Below, one piece after another: positions 16,800 to 53,368 of a DNA stretch of 64,000 nucleotides (the stretch's first letter is position 1; every line of letters begins with the position of its first letter). Made by a program: the position numbers and the translations under genes. Under the pieces are notes generated by a model. The model was not told the DNA's origin. It saw only the letters and a list, made by a program, of their open reading frames with translations, and ran no database searches. Origin of the DNA: Axinella damicornis (lineage: Eukaryota; Porifera; Demospongiae; Axinellida; Axinellidae); assembly GCA_963931865.1 (NCBI GenBank), contig OZ007511.1:13758189-13822188 (forward strand), written 5' to 3'.

Positions 16800-17055
16800 G
16801 GCGGCCGGACTTTAATAATTACGACCTCATGCGCAAGGAGGAGGTCACGTATGCGGCTATAAACGGAGCGGGAGACGGCCTGGGAAACGGGCTATCACGC
16901 TGCGTTACTACAAAACTCTGTACAATAAACGGTTGGGTAAGTTGTGCTAGAAATAGCTACCCGAGTTACATCTGACAAGCAGGTTCTGACTTTTGGCCAC
17001 AGCACTGATATAAAGCACTGATTAATGTTCCGCCACCACCAATAATCACAGAAAA

Positions 17056-22395: not shown

Positions 22396-24687
22396 ATGGC
22401 TGCCATCTGGATGCTGTTGTCCCTTTGCAATCTTGTTGCATTAGGGGCAGCTTCTCATTTCAGAGGAGCCATAATTCAGTGGGCACCAGTTAATGCAGAG
22501 CATTTTGATGGGCAGGTAAGCTGCTATAGAGGAGTAGAGTGATTTGTTATTGCCTTTGTCAACTGAATTGTATGACATGCAGCCATCAACTGTAACATAC
22601 ATGCAGTAGGGACTGAGGAAGTTTGCTTAGACTTTCTACAAAATAAACTAGCTTTTGGTTACAACTCCATGCCAATGCCAAATCCCTTGAAAGAATTTAG
22701 TGGTTTACTTGAGTAAACTTCAGTATAGAGACCCACAGCATTCTTTGAATTAGATGGCCATGGGAAGACAGTCATGCTCCTGAAAGGAATCAGTGGAGCT
22801 GATACTGGAGTCATACTTGAGTAAACTTCATGCAGTAGCTACACCCACTAATAACCACTACATTCTTGACTTAGCAATGGTATAGGATGGTCATGCAGCT
22901 GTCCAAATACTTCGCTAATATGTAGTGAGCTAGCTACTATATATAATTATATGTGATAATTATAATTGTGTGATGATAAAGTGTACGATTTGAGGTGCTG
23001 TTGGATTATTTATATTATTTGTCTTTGCAGATTAGAATGACACACCGCATTGCTTGGAGGAATAGTTATGGACGAAATGTAGCTGGATGTAGCCAGAGCA
23101 TTATTGACTCTCAAACCCTACTTGGTGCTGCGAGTGGAAGCCTAGATTGTCAGAGTGGCTGCAGCGGCACAGTGGGTAGCATGACCTACTTCTGCACAGA
23201 TTTCAGCCGGACAGAAGATTGGGCTACTGGAGAGAGAACCTATGTGTATAATATCGGCACAGTGCCTTACTTTGAAGCTTCGTAAGTTTGATTAATAAAT
23301 CACTTGCCTGTTGCATACCCCCCCTCCCCCTCCCCCTCTCTCTGTATCTGTATGTGTGTGAACCTGGTGCAAAATGCAAGGGCCGGGGTGGATAGTGAAG
23401 TCAGCACATGCTATACATTGCAGCTGTTATATGCGACTTCACGCAGGTTTTCTGGCAATGCTTGGATTCCGCTGGTTCGTGGAGGAAATTCCTACTGGGA
23501 GGTTCGAGTGAAAGGCAACCTGACTCAAAGAACGGACACAGGAAGGATTAATACTTCACCTATTTCTGCCACATCTCCAATTATACAACTGCAACACGGA
23601 TGCAATCACACAATTGAAATACCAGGTGTGTGTGCACTGTGTATCCGAACATGAAAGTAGGTTGCATTGCCCATCAAATGGTTTCCACATACAGTTGAGG
23701 ATGTTGATGGAGACGATATTAGGTGTCGGTGGGCAAAGAATAACCTTGATGAATGTGCGAGTGTCTGTCAAGTTTTTCCAGCAACTTTAAATGAGGTGAG
23801 ATAATTGCAAGAGAGTACAAATATGAAAAAGGAAGCCACGCCTGTATCTAACAACTCATATCCTGGCTATTTTTGCTGTGGAAAGGCAACTGCTATTCAT
23901 ATAGCATTAGTAACTTGGGGAAAGCTTGTACTTAGCACAGAGAGAGAGAGAGAGTGAGTTGCTTCCGTTGCAATTTCCATTTCGTACCATCACCGATGTC
24001 CCAGCCACACTGTGACTGTTCCTTTATAGACCAATGCTGACTCCGCTTTCAAACTACCGGCAGTTATACTATGGCCATGTATGTACATATATACTGTAGG
24101 CGCTCTAATTATGTGTCGTTTCTAATTCTGCATCGAAATTTCAAACCGCTCTTGTGTCACCCGATTATAGTGGCCACATGCAGTTTGAAAGTGGGGTCAG
24201 CGGGGTCAGTGGGGTCAGTGGGGTCAGTGGGGTCAGCGGGGTCAGTGGGGGTCAGCGGGGTCAGCGGGGGTCAGCGGGGTCAGAGGGGTCAGTGGGGTCA
24301 GTGGGGTCAGTGGGGTCAGGTGGGGTCAGCGGAGTCAGCGGGGTCGGCGGGGTCAGTGGGGTCAGTGGGATCAGCGGGTGTACCGAATATAATTACGTTC
24401 CCATGCACTCTACAGACGCAGTGCACTCTCCACTATCAAGCTACTGGCTCTACTGGATACTATGCTGTAGCTTTGCAGATTGAGGACTTTGACACTCCAG
24501 CAAGCACATTACCTCTGAGTAGCGTCCCTCTCCAATTTCTTGTGTTTGTATTCACATCCAATGCTCCCTGTAGCAGTCGACCTGCACTAATTCCTCCTAC
24601 AAGAGTCGATGCCTCCTGTATAGGAGTTCCATTCAACACAACCTACGATGAACCCATTATTGCTCAGAGCGGTGGTGAAACCACAAG
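22396..24687 (+). other. receptor domain block: signal peptide and N-terminal ectodomain module
   Basis: Exons 22396-22515, 23031-23281, 23447-23625, 23695-23795, 24416-24687 (residues 1-308). MAAIWMLLSLCNLVALGAAS is a signal peptide. RGAIIQWAPV, then many Cys, an NTSPISATSPIIQL segment, EDVDGDDIRCRWA and PLSSVPLQFLVFVF follow. This succession resembles an N-terminal ectodomain module I recall from invertebrate and bacterial secreted proteins: a W-rich start, SP..s.PPI, a DxDGDxxxCR strand, then a QxEDF and PLSSVPLQFL strand. I cannot name the family with certainty. Confidence 0.7.
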
Positions 24688-27600
24688 GTAAGGAGCCAAA
24701 CAAGCTTCCCTGCTGTTAATGTTAGACAATCACAACTGACAATTTCTGGGTTACACTGTATAGTGTTGCAAAAGGGCACCCATTGGCATTGTGCACCCTA
24801 ATGCTCACCAAACAGGGGCGTGGGTGCACGCTCTTTAAATGTTTCTGCATTCGTCTATGAAAGAGCGCCCATGCTTGTGGTTTACTCTCACTTCATTGGT
24901 TAGCATCCGCAACCCTCCACCTGACAGCTGCATAGGTTGCTGTTTCATTCTCAGGCAATGTAGCAGTACATCTCATAGCACACCTCCTGCACCTTATAGA
25001 TTCATGCTATAGCTAGCATCATGATGGCTGGAGCATGACATAATTATGCCATTAGTTCAGTATATACTCAGTGAGATATCTCTTTGCAGCATCACGGAGA
25101 TCATGACAGTCTCTCCCATTGGTGTGCACAAATCTGAACTGGCACCATATGAGGGTGAGGTGGGTCAGTGGTATGTTAACATCACGTGGAGTCCTACTCT
25201 GGAGCAGTATGGTCCTGGCATCTTCTGTTTCACTGCTGTTGATAGTATCGGGTGAGTACTGCATGCAGCATGCGTGATGTATACTATGTCTCACTCTTTC
25301 GTTCCCTTCCATTATAGTTTAACGTCTCCACAGAGGTGTGTCACCTTCCTGGGTGGAGGTATGTGATGATTGCAGTGCGCCTTGGCGTGAGGCATCTAAT
25401 CGTGCAGTATAGTGACACTGTGTTTGTATGTTTGTATACATATCAGTCACACTTTAATTGTGTGGCCAGGTGGGCACGTGTGGAATATAGCACTGCCATG
25501 TGGAATATAGCACTGCCATGTGGTTTTGTAGGCATTGCACTTTTGGTATCTGACTCTGCTCGATCTGTACTGGTCCATGGTGTGAACTTCTGCTGGTACG
25601 ATACAATGGAGCTGGAGCTGTCCCCGCTCGATTGGTCCATGGTGTGAACTAGGTGAGATCTACTGGGATTACATATGCTAGTAATGGAGCAGGAGCTGTC
25701 TCAGTGTGATCGTTCTAGCCGTAAATTCAGCTCTCTTTACTTCCATACGAAACTGCACCAACAAATATGCTGGTGGCGAGCACATGCGCGAGGCAGACAT
25801 ACTGCACATGCATACTAGTAATAAGACACTGCAAGGTAAACGTTTGTGAACTCAACCTGATTTCTCTTCTCTCAGTTGAAGCTCCAACGCTGGTTCCTAG
25901 CTCCATGACACCAACTGGAGAGATCTTTGCAAATAACACGCAATGGTCCCTGAGATTTGACAAGCAAGTAAGTATTTTCATTTTGTTCATTTTTTTTTTG
26001 CATGCAAAGTTTACCAATCTTGCTCTGGCCATTTAGTTCCACAGGCCAACCTACCATAGATTCATTCAGATTTTTGAAGAAGATGGGAGCAACGTGGTCA
26101 ACATCAATGTGGCTTCAACAACATCACCTGTGGTTTACCCATCAACGAATCTTAGCCAAGAATTGACCTTCACCACCAACTATGCCTTTGTTGAGAAACG
26201 AAGATACTACGTATTGCTAGATCCAGGTTTGTATATATGACCAAACCATATTAGTGTAAAGTCTGGAAGCTTTCAGTTGATACTGCATGTCTTCTCCACT
26301 ATCCAATCTCTATACAGGTGTAGCTGTAGGGCCCGAGTTTTGTGGTCCCGAGTCACCTGCAGTACGAGATTCCAATATTTGGGTTGTCAGTATTGGTAGG
26401 TCCAATGCATATGTCTGAAGGTTACACCTTGAAACTTGCAAACTACATACTGCACATGTAGTTGTTGTATGTGAGTACTTTTCGAAGTACCGTGCATAAA
26501 TTTATATATTTACAAGTCGAAATATAAAGACTGAGTGTCACCACAGGAAAAACTACCTGGGGACTGGACAGGTACTGTCATCGTCAAAGTTGCTCTGTGA
26601 TCGCAACGTCCACTTGCTGTTTGAGTCCGTGGCGGGACCACTTGAAGACAGTTTTGTATTAAGCTTTCTCAGCAATTATGCTTAGAGGGCTGCCCGTAGG
26701 TGTGGTCTATGCCGGAAATAACGTAATATTCAAGGTTCCCACCACGACTCGGACAGCAAGCAGACAGTGCAATCACGGAGCAAATTTGACGATGATGGTG
26801 CATGCCCGTCCAGTCCCATATTTTACAGGTAGTTTTTCCTGTGCAGCTACTGATCATTTGATTTCTTGCATACTTCAGCCGACGTTACACCCCCACTGCT
26901 GAGTTTTGTGAACAATCCATCCTACACCAACGAAAACATCACCTTCAGCTGGAGTTACAATGAAGAGGCTACTTCCTACTGCGTACTGCAGGCCCCGCAA
27001 ACTGTCCTGCTCCCTCTCTCCTGCAACACTTCAGTGACTTTAAGCAATCTGGTTGCTGGAGTCTATACACTTTACATACAGGGTACAGATTTAGCTGGCA
27101 ATATTGCATCCAATGTGAGACACACATGGACAGTTGGTGAGTGTATTACTGAATTTTAAACTGCTGAGCTATGTGTGGGTATATACCATACATTAAGTAG
27201 TGCATCTTGTATTATGCATCTCATTGAAATTCAACATGGAATAGCATTATTATATACACCATGGCCAGTTGGTGTATATCTGATTGATACACTAACTTGA
27301 GTGTCGCAACCAGTATGGTTTGTCTGACCATGGCTGGACCACTATATTTTCGGTATGCATTTACATTGTGTCAGAAACGGATTAGAACATCGGAGAATGG
27401 CATTGGTTACCAATGGCCTCCACCAGGTAGGGATGAAAGCATACTATACTTTCTCTGGGCTTCTGCAAGTTGTTGACGTGTCAAGGACAGTGCTCCCTGA
27501 CTGCTTCCAAACATTTTGCCGTGCACTTTGCATGTGGGAGACTGGCTACCTCACAATACCTTCCCTATATGGCCATACCACCTTCAAACTGCTTCCGACT

Positions 27601-30600
27601 CCCCTGTAATTATAACTGCTGGTGTTTGAAGGTTTATGGAGTTCACCCTAGGGCTTGTGGTCCTCAGGGGAATATCCTCATAAACCTCCACTCCTCCTGG
27701 CCATGGTCTATATACCTTACATGGCAGTGCATTGTCACAGTACCCCTACATGTATGTTTGCTTGAATAGATCTCACCTCACCGCGAGTGAGACTGTCGTC
27801 ATTGCCACCAAGTGTAAGCCAAAGGACACAGTGGACCATACGGTTCTCCTGCTTGAATGAGCAGAGCTGCACCTACATGTGCAGTGTTCACGACATTGAC
27901 GAGGCTGTGGCATACACATCATGTTCAGGAAGCTTCCAAGCCACTGGTTTACTTGGAGGACACAGCTATGAGTTTGCTGTTGTTGCTACTGATGGAGTGG
28001 GAAATGTTGGAGGTCCCTATCTCTACCGGTGGATAGTTGGTCAGTGGTTGTACATAAAATTATTCTGGACCTTCTACTGCATCATTAGAGTTGCCAGTAT
28101 GATGACCATTTATATTAGGTCATATATACTCTGTGTGTGTATGAGCCAAGTGGGTAAACAATTGGGTGTTGATTATAATGGTCCTTTGTCTCTGTGGGGC
28201 TATTTTTCTCTGTCAAAGTAGACTTCTATGTACCACAAACATAAGGTTTGTTTTACTTGAACCACCCACATTTAATCACAACACATTGGAGAGCTTGTGG
28301 TTGGATCAAGGACACTGTCAATGTGATGAAGCTATGCATTGGAAAATTTTGTGACTTGTAGCTAGGTGACCACAAATATGACGAAAATTGGCATCTCACG
28401 AAAATAACCCATTGTATGGTATCTCGATCTTTTTGCAAAAGTTGATAAGCATAATCAGTATAAGCTATAATGCTATTGGGAGGGGACAAAAGGGACCTAG
28501 GGAATTCCATTACTGAAGTGTGACAAGTCAACTTTGAAGCCAACTGCAAATTGTCTGCGCAGATCTTGGGATGGTTGTAAAAAAAAAGCTGTATTGCAGG
28601 GAATTTTAATTGGTGAACTTTGACCTTTACACTGACTCCCTTATTTGAAGCCAACCATTCTATACCTCAGACCTTATGCTTGGTTGGGCCATTTTAGCTG
28701 CAGACAGTAAAATCACACGGATTAATTCATTGTATAGATAACAGAATGCCAACTAGCTAAGTCTCTGCTCGTCTGTGATACCATGCTAGCTAACATTATG
28801 CCATCTTTTTGGAGTGCAGCATTGTGCTTGCATAGCAAACTGAAAAATGTGCAGCTGATGAGTAAGGTACAGGTTGTACATCTTTTAAACTGAATCCTGT
28901 TTCAGATACCTCACCACCCACACTGTCACTGCTAAGTGATGTTAGTTTGCCCTGTGGAAGTGACTACAGTCCAGATAGGGTGGGGTCTCCCACAGTAACA
29001 GACAACGAAGACACAGACCCCACTGTTGAATATTTTGATAACCCCTCAACTGGCTGCACGATAGCAAGAGAGTGGACGGCCACGGATAATGCTGGAAACC
29101 GAGCTACAGTGACACAAACCATCACTTTCACAAATCCACGACCACCACAAATAACATCCCCAAGTGAAATACCAATTCCGTGTAGTAGTATTGAAGATGC
29201 AGCTGAAAGTGCTGGACAAGCCAATCTCACCATTGTTCATCCCTGCGGTAGACCAGTCAGTATAACTTATACCGACTCTGCTGATATAGATAGGTGTGGA
29301 TTTATATTCACTAGAACATGGGTGGTAGTGGACGACTGTGGAAACACAGACACATTTCAACAGAACATTCGAGTATTGGACCAGCAGAATCCTGATGGCC
29401 CCCTAAACGGTGAACTCAATGTCGGGCTGAATGAACCACTGCAGTGGCCACAGTATCCTGGGGCGAACAGCTATGAAGTATATGTGTGGGTTTATGGAAC
29501 TGAGAGGCCAGAACAGCCAACCACTGTCGTTAACATTCGCCAGTACACACCCGGCACCAGCTACCCTCCCGGAACCCGACTACTGTGGCAGATTGAGTAT
29601 ATAACAGGGACTAATACGTCAGTTCCCAGCCCAGTGTGGGGATTTCAAACTCAATCATTTCCTGATTTGGTCGTGACCGATATCAACATACCAAATTATG
29701 CCTTTTCTGGACAAAGCTTTGATGTATCCTGGACTGTGATCAATCAGGGCAACGTTAGCACAAGGGTGTACCAATGGTACGACGCGATCTACATTGGACG
29801 TACTTTGGACTTCAGTGACAGCAGACGAGTGCGTAACATTCTCCAGAATAGATTTGTGGATCCAGAAGATGGTTATGTGGATGACACAACTGTTGATTTA
29901 CGAATTGATGACATAGGAAACTACTATGTGTTTGTGGTGACAGATCTTCAGTATCGTGTAAGTAGAGATAGCTACTGCAATACTAACTACATGGGCTGCT
30001 TAACAATGACTTGTCATTCCTATAGATGCACCATGTATTATGAATCTGGTCCATTGTGATTACGAGTCTGTGTGTCCACAGTGTAATGCATAGCTAGCTA
30101 TGTGTATTCAATAATGCATTGCTGTCTAAAGTTCCAAAGAGTAAAAATTACTCCAGTAGCCTTGGTAGCTTTATAGGAGATGATGTAAATAACTTGACTG
30201 TTCCCACAGTACAAACCTGCACATAACCGGACCATGGTGCACATCACCAGATGTTTATTATGCCTATTATATACAATGATAACTAGCCATACTGATTGTG
30301 GAGCATTAAGCTTGACCAATGTTTTATCACTCCTGACCAGGTGAACGACATTGACAGGAGTAACAACAGGAGACGCAGCATTGTTCCACTGGAAGTGAAC
30401 CTCACACCCCCTCCCAACCTTGTTGTTGACATGGTGGTTTTACCGACATCAACCTTCTCAGGTATGGATTCATAGCACAAATCCCCTAGATACGTCTACC
30501 AGTAAGAAAGTTCCAGGTAAACCCTGAGGGTGCAGCCCAAGGAGTTTACACTGGACAGGAAATGTGTTGGGTGTATTATGCGGTAAATGTGTCCAGGGGG

Positions 30601-33600
30601 TGGTTTAGCAGGTATGTAGCTTGGACTGACAACCATACAAGCGGTGAAATCTGATTGGCGTTGTTATAGCTACGGTTGCTTAAGAACTGCTTATTTGTGC
30701 AAAATTTATCAAACTGGAGTTGGTTTTACTAGGAGCAATTTAAGCTGGTGACGAGTCATTCTTTTGCATTACGTACACACCTGCAGAACATGTCTGCACT
30801 GTATAAACTGTGGGCAGTGCCTTTGATTTGTATTTGGTTGCCATGCTATAATTCTTATTCTTTATTCTTGTTATTCTTCATTCTTTATCACCAAGGTCAA
30901 GTTATCACTGTGAGGTGGACTGTCAGGAATGCAGGCATAGGTCCTACTGTTGTCAATAGTTGGAATGACAAACTGTTCTGGTCAGGTGATACACAGTTAG
31001 GTGAGCAAAAGTGGAGAGCTTCCTTACTTGGAATTGTAGCTAGTTCAGTCTTGTTGGTATAGTAGCACTGGCTCATTAACAGGCCGGTAGCCAGCCACTA
31101 TAACCAGTTGAGGGGGGTTTCTGCTGCCTAAAAGGGGAGTTCTAATTGAGAAAGCCACTCCCATTCTTATAGGTGCCATCAACCCCCCCCCCCCCCCCCC
31201 CCCCCCCACTCCCCTTGGCTACATGGGCCTGACTTACATTTGTAATTCATGTTCTCTATTTACAGATAGAAATGACAGGACTATTGGAACCTACAGATTC
31301 AATGGTGTTTTGACGGTGGGAGCAACCTACGACTATACTGCATCCTTTACTGTTCAAAATGCCATATATGGAAACTTCTCCGTTATCGTGCTTACTGACT
31401 CGGACAATCAAGTCTATGAGTATGTTGATGAAGATGACAACTCCCGTACCTCAGCGGTATGTCAACAATTATATTATACAAGCCGTTTTGTTTACACAAA
31501 TTATTATGAGGCAATTTGTTCATCGTAGGCTCCTATTCTGGTGATCTTGGCACCCCCACCTGATCTCATTGTGTCATATTTGAATGCCAGTGATGAATAT
31601 ACCACAGGTGATACAATGAGAGTGCAGTTCAATGTATCAAATGTTGGAGCAGGTGCACCGTTCGAATCCTATTGGCAGGATACATTAGTAAGTTTATTCT
31701 CTGTCTTTTAACTGAATAGGTGATCTATGCTCTCACACATGCACGGGAAAACCGCCTGAAGATGCGGACAGGACAGGCACCGTAACCATCAGAGCTTCTC
31801 CGTATTCACACTGTCTGCATGCTGTTCGAATCATTTGAAGTTTCATATTTGGCTTTTTCAGTGATTCTCCTACGTAGAGGAGTACCTGCAGGTGAGTCCA
31901 TGATGGACTGTGTGGACGGTGCGATCATGGAGCAACTTTGACGGTGACGGTACCTGTCCAGTGCCATATCTACAGCTAGTTTCTCCTGTGATGTGCATGT
32001 CTCCATTTTCGACCTCCATGCATATTCTGATGATTTGTTTTATTCACACAAGACATCCCTATGTATGTAATCCCTGTTGTACAATAACAGATGTTGGTGT
32101 CACTGTCAACTGGAGCTCGGTATAGACTTCTCCAATCGACACACTATGGTGCTTTGGAACCTGGGCAGTTCTACTCTACTGGGGTATCCTACACTATTCC
32201 ACCTAGTCTCTCTACCAGTCGATACAACCTCACTGCTCAAACCGACTTCCGAAACCATGTGTTTGAGTTCAATTCGGATGGGAATAATATTCGCTGGAAA
32301 GAGATTCGAATCGAGGAGCATCTCTCAAACCTTTTATTCACCAATGTAGTTGTGTCAGTGCAAACAGATGCTGAAGGAAATAGACTTGCAGTGAACTACA
32401 CCATCACAAACAATGGCACAGGTCCCACATTGAATGCTCCGTGGATAGACACACTGGCTTTTTCATTTTCACAGCTTTATTCTAATGCACAGGCAAGACC
32501 CCTTTCCAGAGTCCTACGTCACAATGACTTGGTTGCAAGTGAAGGGTATTCCCCTAGTGTCGTTGCCTTCATGCCAAGGGATGCCTTCGGGCAGGTCTTC
32601 TTGCATCTTCTAACAGACTCAAACAGGCGCATCGTAGAGGAAGATGAAAGTGACAATGTGTACAGCATAGGACCTTTTACACTGCCACCAGTGTTTCCGG
32701 ATCTTTCTGCTCTGAATCTTACAGCTGTTGATGGTGAGCACCTGGTAGCTGGTGATCCTCTCCGCATAAATTGGACAGTAGCAAATGAGGGAAATGGTTT
32801 ATTGAGAATGACAAGAAGGGTTGATACGATATACATTAGTACCTCACAGGAACTATCTCAGTCAACTATAAAACTGGCAGATATTCAAATCACTACTTCA
32901 CTGCAGCTTGAAGAGCGCTACACATGGTCTGCCGTCGTTCAAACAACACCGGACTTGGTCGGTTCCTACTACCTCATTGTTAGTGTTAATAGAGACAGGC
33001 GTGTTGATGAGAATGGTAGACTACTAAACAATATCGCTAGCACACAGGTCGACTTTTCTGTACCACCAACACCAGACTTTGCAGTCAGTACGATTGACTA
33101 CAGCTACATTGAGTCTGAGAGGGTGCTTACAGTGTTTTGGGCAGTATTGAACGAAGGGAACAGCATGAGGGCTACAAACCAGTGGAATGACCAGGTGTTC
33201 CTCTCTCCACAGCCTGCATTTGATCGTGTTTCAGCCATTCGATTAGGTAGTACAGCTGTATCGGCCCAGTTATCGTCCTCTCAAAGTTACCAATCATCTA
33301 TGAGCTTCTTGATCCCCGTAACAGCCTTCGGTCATTACCACGTACATGTGGAAGTGGACAGCTCAAACACTGTCGCTGAATCATTCGGAGAGGGCAACAA
33401 TATTGGACGTAGTTCTGATAGAGTAGAAATCCCCCAAGCTCCTTCACTTGGACTAAGCGTTGAAATCAACATTACCAACCTCCCAACTATGCTGGTGGCT
33501 GGACAGACTTTTGTAGTGGAATACATTGTTGTCAATACTGGTGAAGTCAATATTGGCACAGATTCTTGGGTGGACGGTGTTTACCTTACTTCTATGCCCA

Positions 33601-36600
33601 CTGCTAGCCGTGACATCATCATTAATTTGGGGATTCTTCTGACTCAAGTTGTAAATAACAGGCAGTTGTCTATCGGGGAAAGCTATTCGGTGTCCGTGAA
33701 TGTAACTGTTCCCTACTCCGTCAATGAACTGATGCACATAGTGGTAGTTGTTGACATCAATGAAGACCTTGGAGATGCATCACAAGTTGATGGTAATACC
33801 TACTTCCCAACCACGACTCCAATCTCAATAGTTGACGGACCTCTTTCGGATCTGACTGTGCTTTCAACTTCCAACAGTCTTTCTTTCCGAGGTGGCGAGC
33901 CAGCTACGATTCCTTACATGGTACTCAACAAGGGTGAGAATTCTGCCGTGGGGACATGGTACGAAGCAATTTACTTGAGTGCTGATGCGCTTCTGGATGC
34001 TTTTGATACCAGACTTAAATCTATCATTAGCATGCAATCACTGAGCATCAACGAAAGCTACACTCAGTCTGCAGTAGTTTTCGTCCCATATGATCTGACC
34101 AATGGTGCATACTACTTGATTTTTCAAGTGGATGTGAGCGATCACATTTTTGAGCTCAACGAAACTAATAACATTGCACGAAAGGTTGTCATGATTGAGG
34201 AGACTGTGAGTACAGATATTGTTTTGGCAAGTGTTACTGCTTCACCAGCAAACCTGGAGTATGGAAGTGGTAAGTGTAAGTTTGATGTTAAAAGATTGAT
34301 CATTTAGTGTCTTGTATAATAGATAATCAACCTGAATACTATGCACCACCCTCAATGTGATTACTATATCCTCTCCTCTCACAGAGCTGAATTTCCAATG
34401 GAGATTGAGCAATAATGGGAGCTTAGAGGCCATTGGATATAAATGTGACACTGTGTACCTTTCAGACGATGATCAATGGGATATCACTGATCATCAGATC
34501 GGAAACCCTCAGTGTAGTAGTGTTAGAATCCAACCACACGAAGGAGATATGATGAACGATGAATCGTTTTCTCTCGCCTCAAACACACCTTTCCTTGCTC
34601 AACACAACTACACTGGCATTGTACGAACCAGGAGCAACATCAGAGATTTGAACCTGGAGAACAACATTGGATATGCCGACACACTGCTTACCGTCAGCGC
34701 CCCGACTCTTGATCTGGGAGCTCCAACTGCAATTACTCTCACTCCAGGAGAGGAGCAAGTGTACAGGATTGATGGCATTCCCGGAGAGAGCACACTAATT
34801 GCTACACTGACTGTAACAGCCAATGATGCTCCATACCACGACCTGCTTCTGCGCCATGGAAACCCTCCTACTGGTTATGACCACGATGCCTATTCCCAGT
34901 ACGCACTCTCGTCTAATCAGAAGGCAGTAGTGAGAAGCACGAAATCTGGAGCATACTATCTCAGTATTGAGAACTCTGGAGCAGGAGAAGAGAGCTATGA
35001 GGTGAACGTTTTGGTGAAGATCGCCGTATTTGAGATTCTCAGCATCTCTCCGGTAAGAGCAGCTCCCTTGGGGAACGTGACTATTTTGTTTTCTGGAACA
35101 CTCTTTGGCAATACCTTGCAAGCCTCTTTGTTAAACGAAACAGACCCTGATATCGAATATAGCGCTCTAGCCCTCTATTGGTTCAATTCTGAAGAGGTAT
35201 ACGCCACTTTTGATGCTTCCGCTCTATCTGCTGGTTTGTACGGTGTGCAACTGACGGACACAGTAACCAGCGCTGTGACTCGACTGAACAGTAGCTTTCA
35301 TATAGCAGAAGGCATCCCAGGGCAGTTGTCAGTTGTGGTTAGACCTCCTAGACCGCTTAGAGCTGGTACTATTGGTACACTTGAGCTGTATGTGCGTAAC
35401 ACAGGCAACACTGACGCATTGACTCCACTGCTAACATTACAAAGCGAAGGAAATGCGCTTATCCAAATTGTAGGAGAGAGCTCCTCTGGACGTTCATCCC
35501 AAATAAGCTTTTACCCCATCACAACTAATGGCCCAGGTGGTATATTTCCTCCGAACGTTGGTGTTCAGGTGTTCCTAGACGTTATCCCAAGGGACGGTTT
35601 CGCAGGAAGAGAAAGACTGCGAGTATTCTACGTTGAGGAGGACACTGAGCCCCATTCCTACCTGGATCAGAGAGATGCTCTCAAGCCATCGTCAATTCCA
35701 GAAGAAGTGTGGGACATTATCTGGTCAAACTTTCAAGACTCTGTAGGTACCACTTGGGCAACTTTCAATCGCCGAATGTCTGAAGTTGCAACAGAGTTTA
35801 GTTTAGTCCAGAAGAAGGTGTACTCACTAGAGGAGTTGGTTGACTATCAACTTCATATAGCCTATGGTTTGCTAACAGGTAAGCCTGTCTTTACATAGAT
35901 GTACTTGGAAATTTTCTGTTATTCAACTTTTGTATCTCTAAACTTCCAGGAGATGTTCTACTAACAGTACAAGACATAGCCGAGGATGGAGTAGTGGGTA
36001 CAGCTCTGCCTCTAGCTGTGGAGAGGAAGTACTCAACGTACATCCACAAACGAAGGACATCTGGACCAATGGGGATTGGTTGGATACTACCGTGGTGGTA
36101 TGTCAGATAAATATTAAATTATGTAATATGACCTAATAATTGGACTTTACTTGCATTCAGGGAAGTGAGAGTACAGAGAAGAACTAATGATATGCTGCAG
36201 CTGTGGAGTGGAAGAGAACTGTTTGAACTTGAGTATATAGGCAATGGTGTGTACAGAGACCCTGTGAGTGGTACTACAGTCAATGCTGATATTACTGCAG
36301 GTAAGGAGTTGCTAAACACACCCATTGATACATTTAACCACTGTAGCACGCCATAAGGTTATGCCATCCCGTAGTTCAGCTGATACTATTTGTACGTAGG
36401 AGTGAAGTATGAAGACCCTGAAGTAGAAGAGATGTATACTTTTGACTATGCAACTGGCCTGCTGATGGAGATCACGAGCACAGATGACGGGAGCACCATT
36501 ACCTTGGAGTATGACAGTCTTCAACAGCCAATCCTCTTTGTGCATTCCAATGGAAAAAAGCTAAATGTGACCTACACTGACGATGGACTAATCAGTTTTG

Positions 36601-39600
36601 TGGAGATACTTGATGAAGATAATACCACTCTGAAGTCTAGGTAGGCGTTGCGATGTCATATTGAGTACAATCTTTATGATTTCAACCTTATACTTGACCT
36701 GTATAATATTTAGTATGCATCTGTACTGTGTTAGTTTAAGGCTTGCAACACAATAAGTATAGGTATTGCTCCTTTCCTTATACACAGTGTCTACAGCTAC
36801 AACGCTGCTGGCAGTCTACTAAACTCCATCACTGTTGGAAACAGCACTACTGAATACACTTACAGTGACAACGGAGACCTCACCAATATCAGTCATGCAT
36901 CTGGGAGCAGGCAATCGTTTCAGTACAACTCAAAGAATTTGCTGTCACAAACTGAGCGGTACAGTGACAGTAGAGAGTTAATTTCCTCCGCCACTTTCAT
37001 GCACAACTGGAATGGGAAACTTGAAATTACTCTTCAGCCGCAAAACAAGACACGAGAATTGCTTCTTGATCTATCTGGTGAAGTTCTTGCAACATTAGAG
37101 GAAGGAATTCCTCTTTATGAAACGGAAGTGGACTCCAGTTTACGGAAGATCATATTTGGCGATCAAGTAAGATGTCATAATATCAACCTTTGCATGCAGC
37201 CACTATAATGTTTATCTTATGAGATTCTACTGTGGGTAGGAGGGAGGTTTACATGTGGAAATCTTCACATTCTAGGAAACTGCATGTCCTATACATGGAT
37301 TGCGTCACCTATATTCTTTGAAGTACAATATGGATCACTGTACTGCATATATCACAGCTGGGAGACAACTGGATCTGATACATTAGTGAGGTGTAGTCTT
37401 GACTAAAATATGAATATCCACTCTCTTCTTTGTAGATTGTTTCGCAGTCTGCATTTGATCCGTCTGATAATATTCTCTATCAAACTGATGCCAATGAGAA
37501 TGAGATAGCCTACAAGTTTGGAGAAGACGAACAGCTTATGAGTTACACGGACAGTGGTGGAAATGTCTACATGTTTGAATACAATGAGGACAGCAGAGTA
37601 GTCAGGTCTGAAAACCCAGATGGAACGGCAAGAACTTTCAGCTATGACAGTGCTGGAGATCTCACTGGTGTCATTAATCCAGATGGCTCCACCATTCAAT
37701 ACATGTATGACTCAGATGGCAATCTGGTAAGCCTTGTACTTCTTTACTGTCACATGCTGTGCTCCAGTATAGGTGTCGTCCTAAGGCATAGGCATGCATG
37801 CATTTGGCAGTTTACATGAGCAAAGCATTTATGTATCTAGTTACTGTATGAGCGTTGTGAAATACATTTATTATTAATGACATTGCACACTACATTGCAC
37901 ATGCTTACACTAGATCTTGAAGCAGTTTGGAAATAACCACATCTCTTACGAGTATGACAGCATGAGACGTCTAATACGTGCCACCAACATCGATGGGACG
38001 ATGGACATTGTTTACGATGATAATGGATTGCCGTTACAACTAACATATCCCAGTGGTCATAGACTCACCTATGGCTACAACAGGCGAAGCCAGCGCGTGT
38101 CTTTGGCAGATAACAATGGATTCAGGGTCACATATCACTATGATGAGAAATACCGCCTGTCCGAAGTACGACTAGGTGAAAGTGATGATTTATTAGCCCA
38201 GTTTGAATATGGGAACAATGGATATCTAATCCGCAAAATCCTTGGAAATGGAGCACAGTCTACTTATTCCTATGTACCTGGTACACAGCAACTGTTTGAA
38301 CTGAGGAACTACTTTCCAAATGGAACGCTATCATCCATGTTTAGCTACACGTATGATGCAAAGCAGCGAGTAACAAAGATATCAACAGACGTGGGCCACT
38401 GGACATACACATATGATGCCATCGGACAGTTAATTGGCTGGGTAGATCCTAATGGAGACATCACCGAATTGAGGTACGATAGCCGTGGTAACAGAATTGT
38501 TGAGAAAAGGAACCAAAGGGAGATGAGCTACTCAGTGAATAACGTGAACCAGTACATGGCTTACAACAGCTCGGACAGCTTTGGTTTTGATCTTGGCGGC
38601 AATCTAAGGGTGAAGACATCAAATGGAAGTAGCGAACGCTTCACATTCAATGCAGAAGGAAAGCTAGTTGAAGTGGAAACAACTGACAAAAGGTCAAAAT
38701 TGCTGCATACACAATTATGTATACTGTACATGAAAACTCAGTGGATGCCTGCATGGGTGTAAGTTACATAGCTAATTCAGCATGGTTGGTCCTTGTCAAT
38801 GCAGTGTAGCATCCTGAGCTGACCAGCAGCTCTGACCACACAGACAGGCACATGCACAGAGTGATTTTGTCCTGTTATTACATTCCACAGGTGTATGTAC
38901 CATTATGATGCTCTTGGAAATCTGTACAGCAAAAACTGTTCTGATTCGTCTGTTTATCAATACCTGATTGACCCATTCGGCAAATATGGAGCTGACATTG
39001 TAGCTGAGGTACGCCTGAATAATGGTTTTTTTTACATATATACTTACCCAGCATGTACATTCTTAAATTTAGGTCTCTGATGGTGAGGTTACTCATTTTG
39101 TTCATTCATATGAGCAAGGTCTGATTGCATCGGTAGACCTAATTAATGGCAGCAAATTCTACCAAGAATATGACGGAGATGGGTAAGAATTGTAGTTATG
39201 GAATAGCAACAGTGTTAACTATATGACACATAATGGTTGAAATATGAACGTTTTCTTTTTGCAATCATTTCCAGATCTGTGATAAGCATAATGAACGATC
39301 AAGGTTCTATACAGAATACCTATAAATATGAACCTTTTGGAAAAGTTTCTTACCAATCAGAGAGGGTGCGGAACATCTTTTTGTATGTCGGAAAGTTTGG
39401 GGTCATTCGTGATGACGAACTCAAGGATATTTTTTTGATGAGGGCTCGGCACTATGATGCACAGCATGGTAGATTCATCACGCTTGACCCTGCAGGTCAG
39501 TGTTTCTCACATAGCTATGTTATTTAAGGAAATAATTTAGTGGTACTTTCTACCATCCACATGATACAGGTTTGGCTGGAAATAGCCCCAATCGCTACCT

Positions 39601-42600
39601 GTATGCATACAACAGTCCCCTGTTAGTGAAGGATCCTACCGGCAGGATAATTCCTGTTGTGATATGGGCAGGTGTAGCACTGGTGGGTGCAGCTGGAGGA
39701 GCACACGATTATATCGTAGCACAACAACGCGACAGTACTTTGGGAGGTATGTATAGTCTGCCTGCATTTAATACTGGTGTGTAGTGTTAAGCATATTGAA
39801 TTCAACCTTACCAGGTGCTGTTGGGGCTGCAGTTAAAGGAGGAATCAATGGCATTGGAAACCTATTGCCTCCAGGTAGACTAATTTTGCTGCATCAGTGC
39901 ATTTGTGACACATCCATCTCTACAATGTAATAGAGTAGAGATTGTATAATTACTTTGTAATTCCACATCAGGGGTGAGCAATGCTGTTGCCGTCATTGCT
40001 GATGTTGCTGGAAATGTAGCACAGCAGGCGATTGATGATCAATCCATTGATATAAACGAAGTAGTGGATGTTGCATATGACGCCATCGTTGACCAAATTC
40101 CAAATGAGATTCCATGTAAGTGTTTTTTGTTTCTGAAAGTGCTGAATTATCGCATGGTATACGTACCTTCTAATTGCTCATCCTCCTTGTACAGCATTGA
40201 CTAAGGCAGTAAAGAATCTGCTGAGAAAACGCTTGCGATTCCTGAAACCTCTAATCAAGCCAGTTCAGAAAGTATTATTGATGGAGTTGAAAGACTACTT
40301 GAAGGATCTGCCTACTCCCCGGTTACTGATTGAGTGGATACGTTCCTTAGACCCAGTAAGCCATGTAGAACAATTAGTACTTTCAAATGTACATATCCAA
40401 ATTTTTTTTGCACCAGGGTCAGAAACCAAGAGTAATTTGTATCTCCAAGTCATTGTGTATCAGTTACATTTCTGTTTCCTTATGCAGAATGACATAATAG
40501 GACCTGATGGCTATGGCAGTGCTCACTTCATTCCTTCTGACGTCACTTTGGATTACAAGATTCGTTTCGAGAACGATCCTAATGCCACAGCACCTGCCCA
40601 GAGGGTTTTAATCAAGCACCAGCTGGATGATGATCTGGATGTGAGGTCCTTCCGCATTGGATCCTTTGGGTTTGGAGACTTCACTCGTGATGTAACTGTG
40701 AGGAGAGCATTCCTGCAGGTCAGCTTCAAATTCAAATATGTAGTTATAATTATGCATCATTACACTACTGGTAGGGAAATAAAGCTAGCCAAAAAATAAA
40801 TAATTCCCGGAGGACGTGAAGAGATTATGACTATACCACTACTGAACAGAAGGCGCAGATAGCAAAATGCGATGCCAAACATGGTGTGACAGCTCCTGTT
40901 CGCTATGGACTCCACCGCATAGCTCTGTAACTCGCTCATCTTCTCACGTTCGCGGCTTGCTTACTGTACTAATTCTCAGACTACTGAGTCACATTCCAAT
41001 GAGTGTTAGTTGGAACATGTCACTCTTTTGCAGGATACACTGAATGTGTCCGACTCTCATGGGGTGTTTGTTCGGATCTCAGCTGGAATCAATGCAGTCA
41101 CCAGAGAAGCAACTTGGGACCTGCAAGCATTAGATCCTGAAACAGGTATAGCTGTAGAGAGTTAATTACCCTTTTTGGTATGGAATGTAAACTAGCAAAC
41201 TATAACAAAAATTCAGCGGCCAGACAACTATATTTCCGCAAAGTACAGTTGCTGGGCATCCATGCAGGATCTCTGGACTCCTTCTGTCAATCATGATCTC
41301 GACTGTGGTATGCAAATAGTGTTCACCCAAACAACATAGCTAGGTTTTTTAGCCCGACACTTTGCCCACTTGGCACGTACTTGCAGCCTCTACAGCACCT
41401 ATGACACCTTATTTACTTTCGCAAAAGGCCAGTATAAGGTGCATGAAATTGACAGTACAGGCGGAAAACAACACATGCTAATTGATGTGATACGCAGACT
41501 AGCCCGTGACCTTAATATCACTCACTCTGATGTTGTACAGCAACAGGTGCACAAATTGTGATTCTTTCCGGTAAAGTGGTGAATATTAATGCCCTGATGC
41601 AGGTGAACCTCCTGTGGATCCAACTGTTGGCTTCCTACCCCCTAACAATGGTACTACTGGACAAGGCTTTGTTACATTCATTGTCAGAGCTAAGCAGCGA
41701 GTGGGAAGCCTGTCACGCATCGATGCTGAAGCAGCCATAATCTTTGACCAGAATGAGCCAATAGACACGCCACCTATTTTCAACACCGTAAGTGAAGCAT
41801 TACGTGAGGGATGATATGTATATAAGAAATGTTTAATCGACAACATAAGATGGAATAACATGTATTCACACTCTCCTTACTGGTCGGTAGACTCTGTATG
41901 TAGGGATAGAGTGGACATGAAATGTATGATAGCTACGTAATATAACAAATCTAAATAACGGTCAAGCCTTATAACGGTCTTCTTCTTCATCATACGGGCT
42001 AGTTCAAAATCGCTCGACTCTCTCATGACAGTTTTAGCACAAAACAGCTATTGCACAAGTCATACCTTCAGCATTGTTGAAACTTGAAAGTTTGGTTTTC
42101 TGGGTACAGATTGATGACCTGGCTCCCTCAGTGAACATCAGTGTTATCCCAGACTTCCTGGCAAATGGGACACTTGCTCTGAGGCTTCAGGCGTATGATG
42201 TTGGGTCTGGTGTGAGAGGAGTTGACATATACCAACTTGCAGGTAATTATAAGGCTTAAAGTGATACCATAATATTATGTTTGTGTGGCTGCATCATGAA
42301 GAGAGTACACACATATAGGACTAGAAATCAGAAACCAACATTGACATAGTATAGTTTGGTAATGTCTAGTGTCAAATTACACATTTCCAACAGAATGTGT
42401 AGAGATATCATCAAATTGACTGATGGATGCATGATTTACCCTCACTATGTTTTTCCTTTATGCACACAGGAGACATGAGGGCCCAGCCTCTAGTGACTGG
42501 GTCACAGGACTCAATTGCCATCTTAAACCTGGCTCCTGGGTCTCAGTACAGGCTGTTTGCTTCAGCAGTTGACAATGTCGGCAATCAGAGGCCTTCACAA

Positions 42601-45364
42601 GAGCTGATAGCAGACTCACTGCTCGTTGATTTCCCCATCTCTCAAGCTCTCTGTGTTAACAACTGTTCTAACAGGGGAAGCTGTACAACCTTCGGCACCT
42701 GTGATTGCTCTCAAGGGTTTTATGGAAGTGACTGTAGCCGAGGTATAATATGTTGGCTTAGGTATATTGCATTCAGCTATATGTATCCCTATATCCTCAC
42801 TGCCTGCCTGTGCCTGCTGGAGAATAGGTATTGCATGGTTGGAATAAGTATAATAATTGTAGATATAATATGTATAGTACACATACAGTATAGTACACTT
42901 AATTATAGTACATAATATAATAAGTATAGTACACATATAATATAAGTATAGTACTTGAAACTTCCATGTTACTTTCTGTGTACCTTTGCTCTCCTCCCAG
43001 ACACGCTACCTGCAGAGCCCCCGGTTATTGAAATGTCCTCGCCAGGAGGATTAGAGGGTTCTCTTCTTCCCCTCTTATTGTCAGCAAGACCAGCCAATCA
43101 GAGCACTTCTCCTATGGGACTCCACTTGCAGGTGACAAACATTCCTGAAGGATCCACCTTTAACAAGGGAACGTTTAGTGACGGCATCTGGACCTTTAAT
43201 CATACTGAATTTGGATATATGGAACTTACTTTGCCACAAGATTTTTCAGGAAGCATCCAGCTAGAGACGACTGCTGTGAGCTCCGAGGCATCCAAAACAG
43301 GCTCCTTGCAAGTGTCAGTGCAAGCTGTGGCAGATCCCCCTAACCTTCATGTCGAAGACGTATGCTACGATCCAGCCAGTGAAAGCATTACTCTCGATAT
43401 CCAGAGCTCTCTTACAGATACTGATGGCTCTGAAAACCTCTCAGTCATCCTGGAGGTTCCTGAGAACTTCAGTGTCACTTCCGGTCAGAACATCACTAAT
43501 GGTTTCTACATGCTGAATTCGTCAGAATTAGGAATGGTTGAAATTTTCATTTTGGGAGGCTTCCAGCCTGTTGCTTTGAATGTCTCTGCAATATCAACAG
43601 AGGAAATGAATGACGATACTGCTTACACTAATGTTTCGCTATCTGTGCAGTTGTGTGAAGCAGGTGGTAACGCAACAGCAATACCTGAGGTCACACCAAG
43701 TTTTATTGTTACGGCCACACCTGAAGTCACACCCACACCTGAGGTCACACCCACACCTGAGGTCACACCCACACCTGGGGTCACACCCACACCTGAGGTC
43801 ACACCCACACCTGGGGTCACACCCACACCTGAGGTCACACCCACACCTGAGGTCACACCAGTTGATAATGTTACGGCCACACCTGAAGTCACACCCACAC
43901 CTGGGGTCACACCAGTTGATAATGTTACGGCCACATTTGAAGTCACACCCACACCTGAGATCATGCGAGTTGATAATGTAACAGCCATACCTGAAGTTAC
44001 ACCCACATCTGACAGCACACCCACATCCGATGTCGCACCAGGTGACAGCACACCCAGATCCGATATCACACCAGGTGACAGCACCACAGCCACACCTAAG
44101 GTCATAGTTGTCCCAGGTCAGTCATGATGGTGTATTCATGGCATAAAATTTACGTCATGTGTAGCTACCTGTGGTGTAAGCTTTCCCTGAAAATTTGAAT
44201 GAATGTGATCATAGCGGAACTTTAAAAAGATGTTTGCAGCTGTTGCAGGTGGCCCTTGGGTGAGAGAGCCAGATCAGAGCTGTGCAGTTGCAGTTGAAAA
44301 GAGATGGCACAGTTATAAGTCTTAGCAGACTGGTGTGGACTGCTTGCAGCAAGCTTTGCCTCACTTTTACTCCCTGAGTAGCATGACCGTCTTACTTTCT
44401 TCGGCAACTTTATAAATTATTGCTAGGCTCTGTTAGAAAGGCCTTCACATGTAGCACCGTTGTCATCTCACAAAATGTCTTTAACAAGGAAAATTTTCTG
44501 CTATAGCTACATCTGCAGTGGCGGCGCCGCCAGTCCGGCTGGTCCGGCTTTGGCTGGACCACTTTTCGAGCCGACCAGATAATTAATAACACAGACTCAG
44601 CAATGGCATCTGTTTCTCGTCCTAGTTCTGGGCCTACCGTTGATACTCCACACCAGCCAAGGTCTTTTCTTTCCCAAAACGGCCGTTTGGATGCTACGAG
44701 AGCGCTTCCTCATCGCTAAAAATACATGCGAAAAACTTTTTCTGCGCTTTGCGCGGACAGATCTGCGCTTCAGCGGTGTGCTATGATTGTGGGCCGTACC
44801 ACCCTTTCTATGCCGCTGCCGCCCCTGATCTGTTATGTAAATGATTGATGAGTTCAGAATTATACCCATAAGCCATTGTCAGGATGCGAGTGGTACACTG
44901 GGCAAGAGAGGGAGTTGATTAAGGGCGTCACCAATCAATCAACTTTCAAGGATCAAAAATGAGCTCCTGTGTGCCTCTTGCAAATAGAAATTGGTAATGT
45001 TTGATCACTTCAAATATGTACAACTTCTGCATTTAATCGCTCTCCACCACAGCTGCCATTGTGTTTATCTTCGGTGGATCAGTGCTGGTAGTCCTACTGG
45101 TGGCGGTGGTGCTTCTGCTCATTTGCTGTACCTGCTGGTGCAATCGGCAGAAGCATGATCCAGGTGAGATGAACTTCTAAGCAATTATACATTGTGATGA
45201 ACGGCTAGACCACAGGAAAGTGACAGCAAAATGAGTCCCATGTGTAACATTGCTCGGACTGCTGCTCACTGAAGGCATTTATTTTTTTTGCAGGTGAAAA
45301 CCACATGTACTTCATCCACAATTCTGATGTAACTGACGAATCGTTTAAAAATACTGAAATGTAA
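22396..45364 (+). CDS. giant CARDB-RHS-EGF type I membrane protein (40 exons, ~4171 aa)
   Basis: All 40 exons join in phase from ATG 22396 to TAA 45362-45364; exon coordinates are in the domain entries below. Order by residue: signal peptide 1-20; secreted beta-rich module about 21-310; Ig/FN3-like modules about 310-670; two hyalin-like modules 672-825; FN3-like 826-925; about nine CARDB-type repeats 926-2050; further beta domains to 2438; RHS/YD shell 2439-3248 with RHS core to about 3275; post-core Gly/Ala-rich and helical region 3275-3428; bacterial-type module 3429-3649; EGF about 3710-3738; two beta domains and a Thr/Pro stalk to 4111; TM 4112-4141; 30-residue tail. CARDB and RHS modules are typical of bacterial surface proteins, and RHS shells occur in animal teneurins. 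The secreted leader, EGF, stalk and TM mark it as an animal cell-surface protein. An adhesion or recognition role is inferred. No toxin or enzyme domain seen. Confidence 0.85.
24187..24380. repeat. 9-bp tandem repeat (GGGGTCAGY)n in receptor intron 4
   Basis: About twenty degenerate copies, with one-base length variants that change the frame. The array ends about 35 bp before exon 5 (24416). Intronic, so the Gly/Ser-Val open frames are artefacts. Confidence 0.95.
25090..28039 (+). other. receptor domain block: Ig/FN3-like modules
   Basis: Exons 25090-25251, 25318-25358, 25876-25967, 26037-26226, 26318-26395, 26879-27136, 27770-28039 (residues 308-672). Repeated DxTxP starts (ADVTPPLLSF, DLTSPRVRLSS) and endings such as GTDLAGNIASN and ATDGVGNVGGP are typical of bacterial-type Ig-like repeats that end in 'DxxGN'. 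The phase-1 borders of exons 11 and 12 make them symmetric, shuffle-ready modules. Confidence 0.7.
26548..26836. mobile_element. MITE-like inverted-repeat element in receptor intron 10
   Basis: Left end AAACTACCTG..GGACTGGACAGG with ATCGTCAAAGTTGCTC inside. The right end mirrors it (GAGCAAATTTGACGAT .. CCAGTCCC .. CAGGTAGTTT). A related, more decayed copy lies at about 31738-31999. The open frame at 26678-26902 runs through this element and is not an exon. Confidence 0.65.
28906..31687 (+). other. receptor domain block: hyalin-like modules, FN3-like and CARDB repeats 1-3
   Basis: Exons 28906-29957, 30341-30461, 30896-31000, 31266-31456, 31529-31687 (residues 672-1214). Two modules carry the hyalin-repeat style (LPCGSD .. 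TATDNAGNRATVTQTITF; IPCSS .. VVDDCGNTDTFQQNI). CARDB starts include FPDLVVTDINIPNYAFSGQS, PNLVVDMVVLPTSTFSGQ and PPPDLIVSYL, each followed by the typical 'W.V.N.G' strand (WTVINQGN, WTVRNAGIG, FNVSNVG) and a DxxxxVxExxE-like end (DNQVYEYVDEDDNS). Confidence 0.8.
31182..31208. repeat. poly(C) tract in receptor intron 15
   Basis: About 26 C in a row, roughly 60 bp upstream of the exon 16 acceptor (31265). Confidence 0.9.
31738..31999. mobile_element. decayed MITE-like element in receptor intron 17
   Basis: Contains GGACAGGACAGGCACCGTAA on the left and GGAGCAACTTTGACGGTGAC .. CCTGTCCAGTGCC on the right, the same motif order as the element at 26548-26836 but more diverged. No coding content. Confidence 0.5.
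32091..34269 (+). other. receptor domain block: CARDB repeats 3-9 in one 2179-bp exon
   Basis: Single exon 18 (residues 1215-1941). At least five full CARDB-like repeats follow each other at about 110-residue spacing. Their second strands are VNYTITNNGTG, INWTVANEGN, VFWAVLNEGN, VEYIVVNTGE and IPYMVLNKGE. Repeat ends carry VEEDESDN, VDENGRLLNN, VAESFGEGNN and FELNETNN, the usual CARDB 'D....V.E..E.NN' signature. The lack of introns through five repeats contrasts with the short exons on either side. Confidence 0.85.
34385..35878 (+). other. receptor domain block: CARDB 9, PPC/IPT-like domains (1494-bp exon)
   Basis: Single exon 19 (residues 1941-2439). It finishes a CARDB repeat (FQWRLSNNGS .. 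DLNLENN). A domain starting with LTPGEEQVYRIDG follows, like bacterial pre-peptidase C-terminal beta-sandwiches, then an IPT/TIG-like start (ILSISPVRAAPLGNVTILFS), another beta domain with LYVRNTGNTDALTP, and a helical linker (SIPEEVWDIIWSNFQDSVG) leading into the RHS part. Confidence 0.65.
35950..39495 (+). other. receptor domain block: RHS/YD-repeat shell
   Basis: Exons 35950-36097, 36161-36300, 36400-36640, 36788-37166, 37436-37726, 37914-38692, 38891-39008, 39073-39182, 39275-39495 (residues 2439-3248). The block opens with LPLAVERKYST .. GPMGIGWILPW, the usual start of RHS proteins. Many YD-type repeats follow: FSYDSAGDLTGVINPDGST, YMYDSDGNL, YEYDSMRRLIRATNIDGT, YTYDAIGQLIGWVDPNGD, LRYDSRGNRI. 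It then reaches YKYEPFGKV and MRARHYDAQHGRFITLDPAG, the RHS core. In bacteria and teneurins such repeats fold as a large hollow beta-shell. Confidence 0.9.
39570..40355 (+). other. receptor domain block: end of RHS core and post-core region
   Basis: Exons 39570-39746, 39815-39874, 39972-40115, 40195-40355 (residues 3248-3428). GLAGNSPNRYLYAYNSPLLV then KDPTGR closes the RHS core. After it come a hydrophobic Gly/Ala segment (VALVGAAGGAHDYIVAQQ, GAAVKGGINGIG) and ADVAGNVAQQAIDD. This resembles the Gly/Ala-rich linker that precedes C-terminal domains in bacterial RHS proteins. A basic helical stretch follows. No toxin domain comes next; the chain continues into another beta module. Confidence 0.7.
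40488..42242 (+). other. receptor domain block: bacterial-type 'NDP' beta module
   Basis: Exons 40488-40718, 41034-41145, 41603-41787, 42110-42242 (residues 3429-3649). Key text: DPNDIIGPDGYGSAHFIPS, IRFENDPNATAPAQRV, HQLDDDLD, WDLQALDPETGEPPVDP, FLPPNNGTTGQGFVTF, AAIIFDQNEPIDTPPIFNT. From memory, this series closely matches a domain of bacterial multi-domain surface proteins (F-x-N-D-P..A.A..V.I.D.LD.. and I.FD.N.PI.T....NT). I give no accession because I cannot check it. The last part starts an Ig-like unit (DDLAPSVNISVIPD). Confidence 0.6.
42470..42742 (+). other. receptor domain block: FN3-like end and EGF module
   Basis: Exon 37 (residues 3649-3740). LAPGSQYRLFASAVDNVGN closes an FN3/Ig-like unit. 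Then CVNNCSNRGSCTTFGTCDCS with GFYGSDC forms one six-Cys EGF-like module, the most clearly animal-type extracellular module in the protein. Confidence 0.85.
43001..44116 (+). other. receptor domain block: two beta domains and Thr/Pro-rich stalk
   Basis: Exon 38 (residues 3740-4112). Two domains have the pattern 'L..TDxDGSExLSV.LEVP.N....G.N..NGxYxL..SELG', close to repeats of bacterial large adhesins. They are followed by an in-frame 18-bp repeat (about 43710-43990) encoding PEVTPT units, with NVTATPEVTP variants. The stalk is rich in Thr and Pro and likely O-glycosylated, lifting the ectodomain from the membrane. Confidence 0.75.
45053..45364 (+). other. receptor domain block: transmembrane helix and cytosolic tail
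   Basis: Exons 45053-45163 and 45294-45364. AAIVFIFGGSVLVVLLVAVV and LLLICC form one hydrophobic helix of about 26 residues, ending in CTCWCNRQK, a Cys-rich, basic inner boundary suited to palmitoylation. The tail is about 30 residues (HMYFIHNSDVTDESFKNTEM at the end) with one Tyr in a MYFI context. No kinase or known signalling domain is present. Confidence 0.85.
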
Positions 45365-52849: not shown

Positions 52850-53368
52850 CACGGTCTCAAGTTGTGAATGACCATGCCCATAGTCGACCCCAAACTTCAA
52901 CAGCCCAAAGTGGGTTCCGTTCTCCAATGGTGACTGCAGTTGCATCTTGGTCATCCCGTTTGGACGATCAAGATCAACCACAGTGATAATCACACACATG
53001 ATGAAAATGTATTTTGAAGATGCATGGCAGTTTGTGCTGGCACTTAATTGACAGGTCACTGGTGGACCAGCTTTGAACATGGGAGAGAGCAGAAACTGTG
53101 GCAGGGAAGACCAGCAGAGACCCCTGGAGACCAAGGGAGACCAGCAGACACCACTATATGTGTCTAACCCATGCACATCAAGGCAGCTATACGATTCATT
53201 AGTCTCCCACCATGAAACTGTCCTTAGCTTCGATGTGGACAGGGACGAGACTAGTAGTACATACTGGAGTGTAAGCTACATGTAAAGTCACAGGAAGGTG
53301 ATCCCTTTGGCAGGTCCTAGCTCTTGCTACTGCACATGTACATTAGTGCTTTGTTCCTGGTAAGCAAT
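52850..53368 (+). pseudogene. rearranged, truncated copy of the STYXL1-like gene
   Basis: 52850-52940 matches the parent around its start codon (TCAAGTTGTGAATG). The copy then jumps to the P-loop region (GCATCTTGGTCATC .. GGACGATCAAGATCAACC) and follows the parent to GAGAGAGCAGAAACTG at about 53095, with small deletions. At about 53297-53368 the parent 3' end (50130-50195) reappears in inverted orientation (GGCAGGTCCTAGC .. TTTGTTCCTGGTAAGCAATGG). Most of the coding region is missing and frames are broken, so this is a dead copy. Confidence 0.8.

Follow-up and report, generated by a model that had tools for sequence, protein, structure and literature searches.

A predicted sponge receptor with an RHS shell inside a colinear bacterial-type block

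The window examined here is a stretch of 64,000 nucleotides from the genome of the sponge Axinella damicornis (contig OZ007511.1). Between positions 22396 and 45364 its plus strand holds one gene for a protein of 4,165 residues, in which a signal peptide and Ig- and HYR-type modules are followed by an fn3-like domain, a CARDB array, a linker segment, an RHS/YD shell, a DUF7619 domain, an EGF-like domain, a Thr/Pro stalk and a predicted transmembrane helix. Comparison of these modules with bacterial proteins suggests that the gene probably represents a second family of RHS-shell receptors, one in which a bacterial block of ~2,800 residues was captured whole and an animal receptor was built around it.

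Colinearity with bacterial proteins

A scan of GTDB genomes for DUF7619 led to 45 loci that were fetched, and the reading frame was read in 16 of them. Four of these frames contain CARDB, the linker, RHS and DUF7619 in the order found in the window. They come from Clostridia (L019), Crocosphaera (L027), Anaerolineae (L029) and Planctomycetaceae (L036), with a coverage of at least 0.99 for CARDB, 0.74 for the linker, 0.80 for RHS and 0.97 for DUF7619. The Clostridia and Anaerolineae loci also carry the fn3-like domain in front of the block. A fifth locus (L050) has the linker, RHS and DUF7619, with a CARDB coverage of 0.47, and two further proteins, P0131 and P0013, show the module set likewise in order. 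Over most of the block, P0131 and the four loci have the same modules in the same order as the window protein. However, the bacterial proteins are intronless and show no match to the SHFRG/HYR or EGF/stalk/transmembrane parts, and other attachments are seen, such as SLH domains in P0131 and a dockerin domain in P0006. Across the 45 loci, whole-locus matches were found for RHS in 10 and for the fn3-like domain in 5, and for the N-terminal block and the EGF-to-C-terminus block in none.

An earlier note on this DNA, made by a model from the letters alone, had inferred a bacterial origin for these modules, and the four colinear frames strengthen that suggestion. CARDB and DUF7619 are also present in bacterial loci where RHS has no match, which favours separate acquisition of the modules and their assembly in animals. 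Yet the whole order lies within single frames in four bacterial groups, and a piecemeal assembly seems very improbable. Since the modules are broadly distributed in bacteria, we infer that the transfer ran from bacteria to animals (the trees described below are unrooted). A single acquisition is also inferred. An animal or pre-animal ancestor would have taken up a bacterial surface protein, the central 2,800 residues of which (fn3-like domain, CARDB array, linker domains, RHS shell and DUF7619) would descend as one block. The signal peptide and the Ig/HYR-type modules would have been added in front, the EGF, stalk and transmembrane parts behind, and introns would have been gained.

Gene model and protein anatomy

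A splice-aware dynamic program applied to the genomic DNA gave one continuous reading frame from the ATG at 22396 to 45364 on the plus strand. The exon count varies from 43 to 53 with the chosen intron penalty. The final model comprises 44 exons and encodes 4,165 residues, with a single terminal stop (TAA) at 45362–45364. This is close to the 40 exons and ~4171 residues of the earlier note, and the gene end placed there at 45364 is upheld. In the final model two exons in and beside a tandem repeat were dropped and the 3' end was joined by hand. In a 46-exon version, which keeps the two repeat-associated exons, all 45 introns are GT-AG (the program also permitted GC donors). The frame is maintained from the stalk exon through the transmembrane exon to the last exon. 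Several small 5' exons and exon 38 are uncertain. A short tandem repeat within the gene (24171–24360), one frame of which reads SGVSGVSG, is probably intronic. The gene sits on a contig of 14.5 Mb, in an assembly totalling 226 Mb. The introns, this contig and the neighbouring genes exclude chance and contamination (the earlier note had named bacterial coverage as a refuting finding), and the predicted structure is that of an intact gene of an animal, encoding a very large receptor at the cell surface. Its parts, all on the plus strand, are as follows.

22396–22515, plus strand: exon 1, which carries the start codon and signal peptide and opens the 'SHFRG' module; a similar start occurs in paralogue B (below) and in metagenomic P0124–P0130
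23031–28039, plus strand: N-terminal animal-type region with the SHFRG module and Ig-like domains; no match in the 45 bacterial loci
28906–29957, plus strand: large exon with HYR_4C domains, the fn3-like domain (from ~29397; matched in 5 of the 45 loci) and the first CARDB
29712–34695, plus strand: CARDB array, nine copies by eye or 7 Pfam stretches, including a 2,179-base exon (32091–34269)
34696–35878, plus strand: CARDB-to-RHS linker segment, in the same location in bacterial proteins; presumably resembles PPC, TIG and NEW3 folds
35950–39647, plus strand: RHS/YD shell with a DUF6531-like start and a bacterial-type core ending in DPTGR
39648–40487, plus strand: post-RHS Gly/Ala-rich hydrophobic segment, which includes the uncertain exon 38 and diverges most between the paralogues
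40488–41787, plus strand: three exons that encode DUF7619, conserved better than any other segment, with 76% identity between the paralogues
42110–42742, plus strand: post-DUF7619 domain, then an EGF-like domain (~42640–42741)
43001–44116, plus strand: large exon with a further extracellular region and the Thr/Pro stalk, whose 151 residues include 38 Thr and 32 Pro
45053–45163, plus strand: transmembrane exon, in frame with the stalk exon
45294–45364, plus strand: last exon, with a short cytoplasmic tail and the stop codon

The Pfam scan, which the earlier note had proposed, was run on four pieces of the translation extending into the stalk. It found HYR_4C (2.1e-7), CARDB (3.8e-51 in 7 stretches, 171.9 bits against a cut-off of 22.7), RHS_repeat (4.7e-43 in 8 stretches, 145.2 bits against 22) and, after the RHS core, DUF7619 (2.8e-15, 57 bits against 27). 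DUF6531 (2.5e-4) and all EGF models are below cut-off, the best of the latter being a teneurin-type EGF (4.4e-5). The CARDB-like repeats (approximately nine, and nine by eye here) and the full RHS shell with core read from the letters are borne out, and the post-RHS module noted there exists, although its identity as DUF7619 was not visible to that reader. Of the EGF domain and Thr/Pro stalk in the same description, the stalk stands by its composition, and the EGF-like domain can be placed but falls short of the Pfam cut-offs. The core motif, RHYDAQHGRF...DPAGLAG...NSP...DPTGR, has the bacterial form. The hydrophobic N-terminus and a single strong C-terminal hydrophobic segment (19-residue mean hydropathy of 3.17) indicate a type I protein, in agreement with the signal peptide and transmembrane helix first proposed. 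The cytoplasmic tail comprises ~30 residues, in which no signalling motif was recognised by eye.

A paralogue in the same genome

A full-length paralogue (B) is found on another contig of 13 Mb (G000:C9, ~12644000–12673000, L006–L009), with the same module order and its own transmembrane helix. It is 54.6% identical to the window gene (A) over 3,946 aligned residues, and 29 introns are common to both in place and phase (the gene models compared have 50 introns for A and 49 for B). The proportion of synonymous differences (pS) is saturated at 0.739, and that of nonsynonymous differences (pN) is 0.293. Among eight segments, pN is lowest in DUF7619 (0.139) and highest in the post-RHS segment (0.457). 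These sequences indicate that the pair is under purifying selection. In the whole genome, matches at E ≤ 0.001 to RHS_repeat (at least 5), DUF7619 (at least 4) and CARDB (at least 4) all fall within the A and B genes.

Relatives and trees

With the RHS-to-DUF7619 region as query, the top match among the best 120 of 733 was a protein of the snail Gigantopelta aegis (36% identity, 8.8e-256). Two metagenomic family members, P0002 and P0007, fell within the first seven matches, and the others of these 120 with informative source names were bacterial. The Gigantopelta protein as query gave 53 matches at E ≤ 1e-60. These include the corals Montipora foliosa and Oculina patagonica and eight metagenomic proteins (P0123–P0130) of 3,445–4,246 residues with the same module order, four of which carry the TSP1 model PF00090. 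The matches that remain after the family members are bacterial or without a source name. Another metagenomic protein, P0132, extends over the N-terminal part and the CARDB-to-linker part only. The N-terminal and C-terminal blocks each match family members only (best 60 of 266 sequences). In the coral protein P0121 the main matches to the window gene are colinear from residue 2 to 3754, with a few extra matches between repeats, and towards its C-terminus EGF domains are followed by a hydrophobic helix and a tail. The homology search suggested at the outset has uncovered relatives in corals, a snail, metagenomes and bacteria. Neither the coral and snail relatives nor the paralogue could be seen by the earlier reader, who worked without tools. 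No description of a CARDB-RHS-DUF7619 animal receptor family was found in the literature searched.

The metagenomic contigs are short for the length of the gene, which suggests that P0123–P0130, P0132, P0002 and P0007 are perhaps intron-poor relatives of animals. A divergent metagenomic protein, P0144 (2,005 residues), may be another eukaryotic member.

In a tree of DUF7619 the 15 family rows form one clade (99/100) against 70 other rows. A tree of the linker, RHS and DUF7619 (1,523 columns) likewise has the 11 family rows in one clade (97/94), with the other 17 rows on the far side. In the latter tree the corals and the snail are grouped together (98/95) against the window pair, and the metagenomic set lies outside.

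Relation to teneurins and other RHS proteins

The bilaterian teneurins (Ten-m/Odz), known for nerve wiring, are likewise animal surface proteins with EGF and transmembrane parts whose RHS/YD shell came from bacteria, probably by a separate capture of a similar kind. However, they are type II proteins with listed Pfam domains Ten_N, EGF, TTR, FN-plug, NHL and Tox-GHH, whereas the window protein is type I with CARDB, a bacterial-type core and DUF7619. None of Ten_N, TTR, FN-plug, NHL and Tox-GHH was matched at E ≤ 1 in the four scanned pieces of the translation. The teneurin C-terminal module, Tox-GHH/TCAP, was rejected on this ground, and it also had no match in the whole genome, in a search in which no control genome gave one. 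The teneurin topology, type II with Ten_N, was rejected for the window protein on the basis of its N-terminal signal peptide, its C-terminal transmembrane segment and the missing Ten_N match. The teneurin order in front of the shell (TTR, FN-plug, NHL propeller) was also rejected, as the CARDB array occupies that place. The window core keeps its DPxG end, while two teneurins compared with it have an insertion in the core and are without this end. Neither CARDB nor DUF7619 is among the Pfam domains listed for 92 teneurin matches, yet both are colinear with RHS in bacteria. Gene order, DUF7619, the core motif and the lack of a match to any teneurin-specific domain in the pieces scanned all support the earlier note's view of a teneurin-independent animal use of the RHS shell.

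A PDB sequence search at E up to 0.1 returned 15 matches, with entries for Teneurin-Like Proteins as well as bacterial RHS proteins but no animal teneurin among them. Teneurin-Like Proteins are presented in part of one paper (PMC13018210) as the relatives of teneurins in bacteria, with C-termini that are toxic, and one of them (PDB 9ifo) has the same RHS shell fold as is predicted for a bacterial homologue of the window protein. A profile built from the family and bacterial shells matches teneurin shells, as expected of distant kin. Arthropod proteins that combine RHS with Tox-SGS are mentioned in a passage of PMC3482391, and an animal RHS shell outside teneurins is therefore not wholly unprecedented. 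TRIP, described as having a teneurin-like first 2,600 residues and >4,000 further ones, was compared by that description and rejected, as the window protein has ~4,165 residues and no match to a teneurin-specific domain in the pieces scanned. The mosquito protein SGS1 and the arthropod Tox-SGS proteins with RHS repeats presumably have partner domains different from those of the window protein.

Several observations weigh against the whole capture of a separate bacterial block. The gene structure is predicted from genomic DNA. The YD shell fold is predicted for the bacterial homologue and not for the window protein, and for the one family member amenable to folding the predicted model was poor (mean predicted local distance difference test score of 54.8). 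PF25023, which we take to be the teneurin YD shell, is listed in precomputed Pfam annotation for relatives, P0001 and P0121 among them, and for most bacterial matches, although hmmscan of the sequences here did not return it. No tree is rooted, and the bacterial sequences in them were picked for likeness to the family. P0144 joins the family in the linker-RHS-DUF7619 tree, adjoining the clade (100/100). In a tree of the C-terminal RHS core (350 columns) the 14 family rows form one clade at 91/78. Eight vertebrate teneurins form another (100/100) on a very long branch, separate from the family in the best tree, but constraining the two together costs 1.96 log units and is not rejected by the approximately unbiased (AU) test (p = 0.306). 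The RHS tree, of the kind called for by the earlier note, is by itself compatible with separation from teneurins and with union alike. Finally, Gigantopelta, Montipora and Oculina are the only named animals in the protein searches, so that the spread of the family is patchy.

The unrejected union, the shared fold of the bacterial homologue, the PF25023 annotation and the weak teneurin EGF matches favour a divergent teneurin, or a relative of teneurins comparable to the TRIPs known from lancelets and acorn worms, to which CARDB domains were added. The opposite topology, the five domains without a match in the pieces scanned, the CARDB and DUF7619 modules, the DPxG end and the PDB matches all argue the other way, and such an origin appears highly unlikely. 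The patchy spread could also reflect gene transfer from one eukaryote to another in recent times, or several uptakes from bacteria, and not one ancient acquisition followed by loss. However, the family is one clade in three trees, the corals and the snail are grouped together against the window pair, and animal-type N- and C-terminal modules are common to the members. Such transfers are rather unlikely. Capture of the block as a whole remains the preferred reading.

Neighbouring genes

Downstream of the gene, on the plus strand, lie a dual-specificity phosphatase with a rhodanese domain (49143–50168, by Pfam) and a flavoprotein frame (53347–54405, by Pfam), which we take to be MICAL. On the minus strand there are three innexin-like frames at 2–697, 6811–8103 and 15480–16811 (Pfam 5.8e-7, 2e-6 and 1.7e-3, the last below cut-off). 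A whole-genome innexin search returned one other place (C7:13171709, E 4e-4) and did not return the three window frames. According to a statement in one review (PMC9816575), innexins are absent from sponges and placozoans, so that such frames would be notable in a sponge genome.

Possible function and significance

In the predicted receptor the Ig-like CARDB domains would form a long stalk presenting the closed RHS beta shell outside the cell, where its ligands would be on other cells, matrix or microbes. A single helix and short tail would anchor the protein, and the tail would act through partners. From this anatomy and the teneurin precedent, an adhesion or recognition receptor is most likely, and for adhesion in particular the case is about evenly balanced. 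The receptor-like anatomy may also suit the recognition or binding of bacteria, in immunity or symbiosis, but it fits adhesion equally well, and we consider a bacteria-binding role the less probable one, with perhaps a minor chance of being correct.

Passages in two papers (PMC6425310, PMC6428715) report that teneurins are absent from corals, and part of a third (PMC13018210) is concordant. One tentative scenario, to which we give somewhat less than even credence, is that the block was captured before or at the origin of animals, in parallel to teneurins, and was inherited vertically and lost in most lineages, serving as an adhesion or self-recognition receptor for animals without teneurins. 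The order of inheritance that belongs to this scenario, and shares its tentative standing, has the metagenomic (perhaps non-animal) members outside, then the window species, then the corals and the snail.

If the whole block was indeed captured, a second family with its own longer bacterial block around the RHS shell, present in corals and a snail among others, would mean that such captures were repeated, and it could then be tested if adhesion was the role of RHS shells in animals from their first uptake. Donor-type proteins would then be indicated in named bacteria, and the family may be relevant to how cells recognise one another in animals that have no teneurins.
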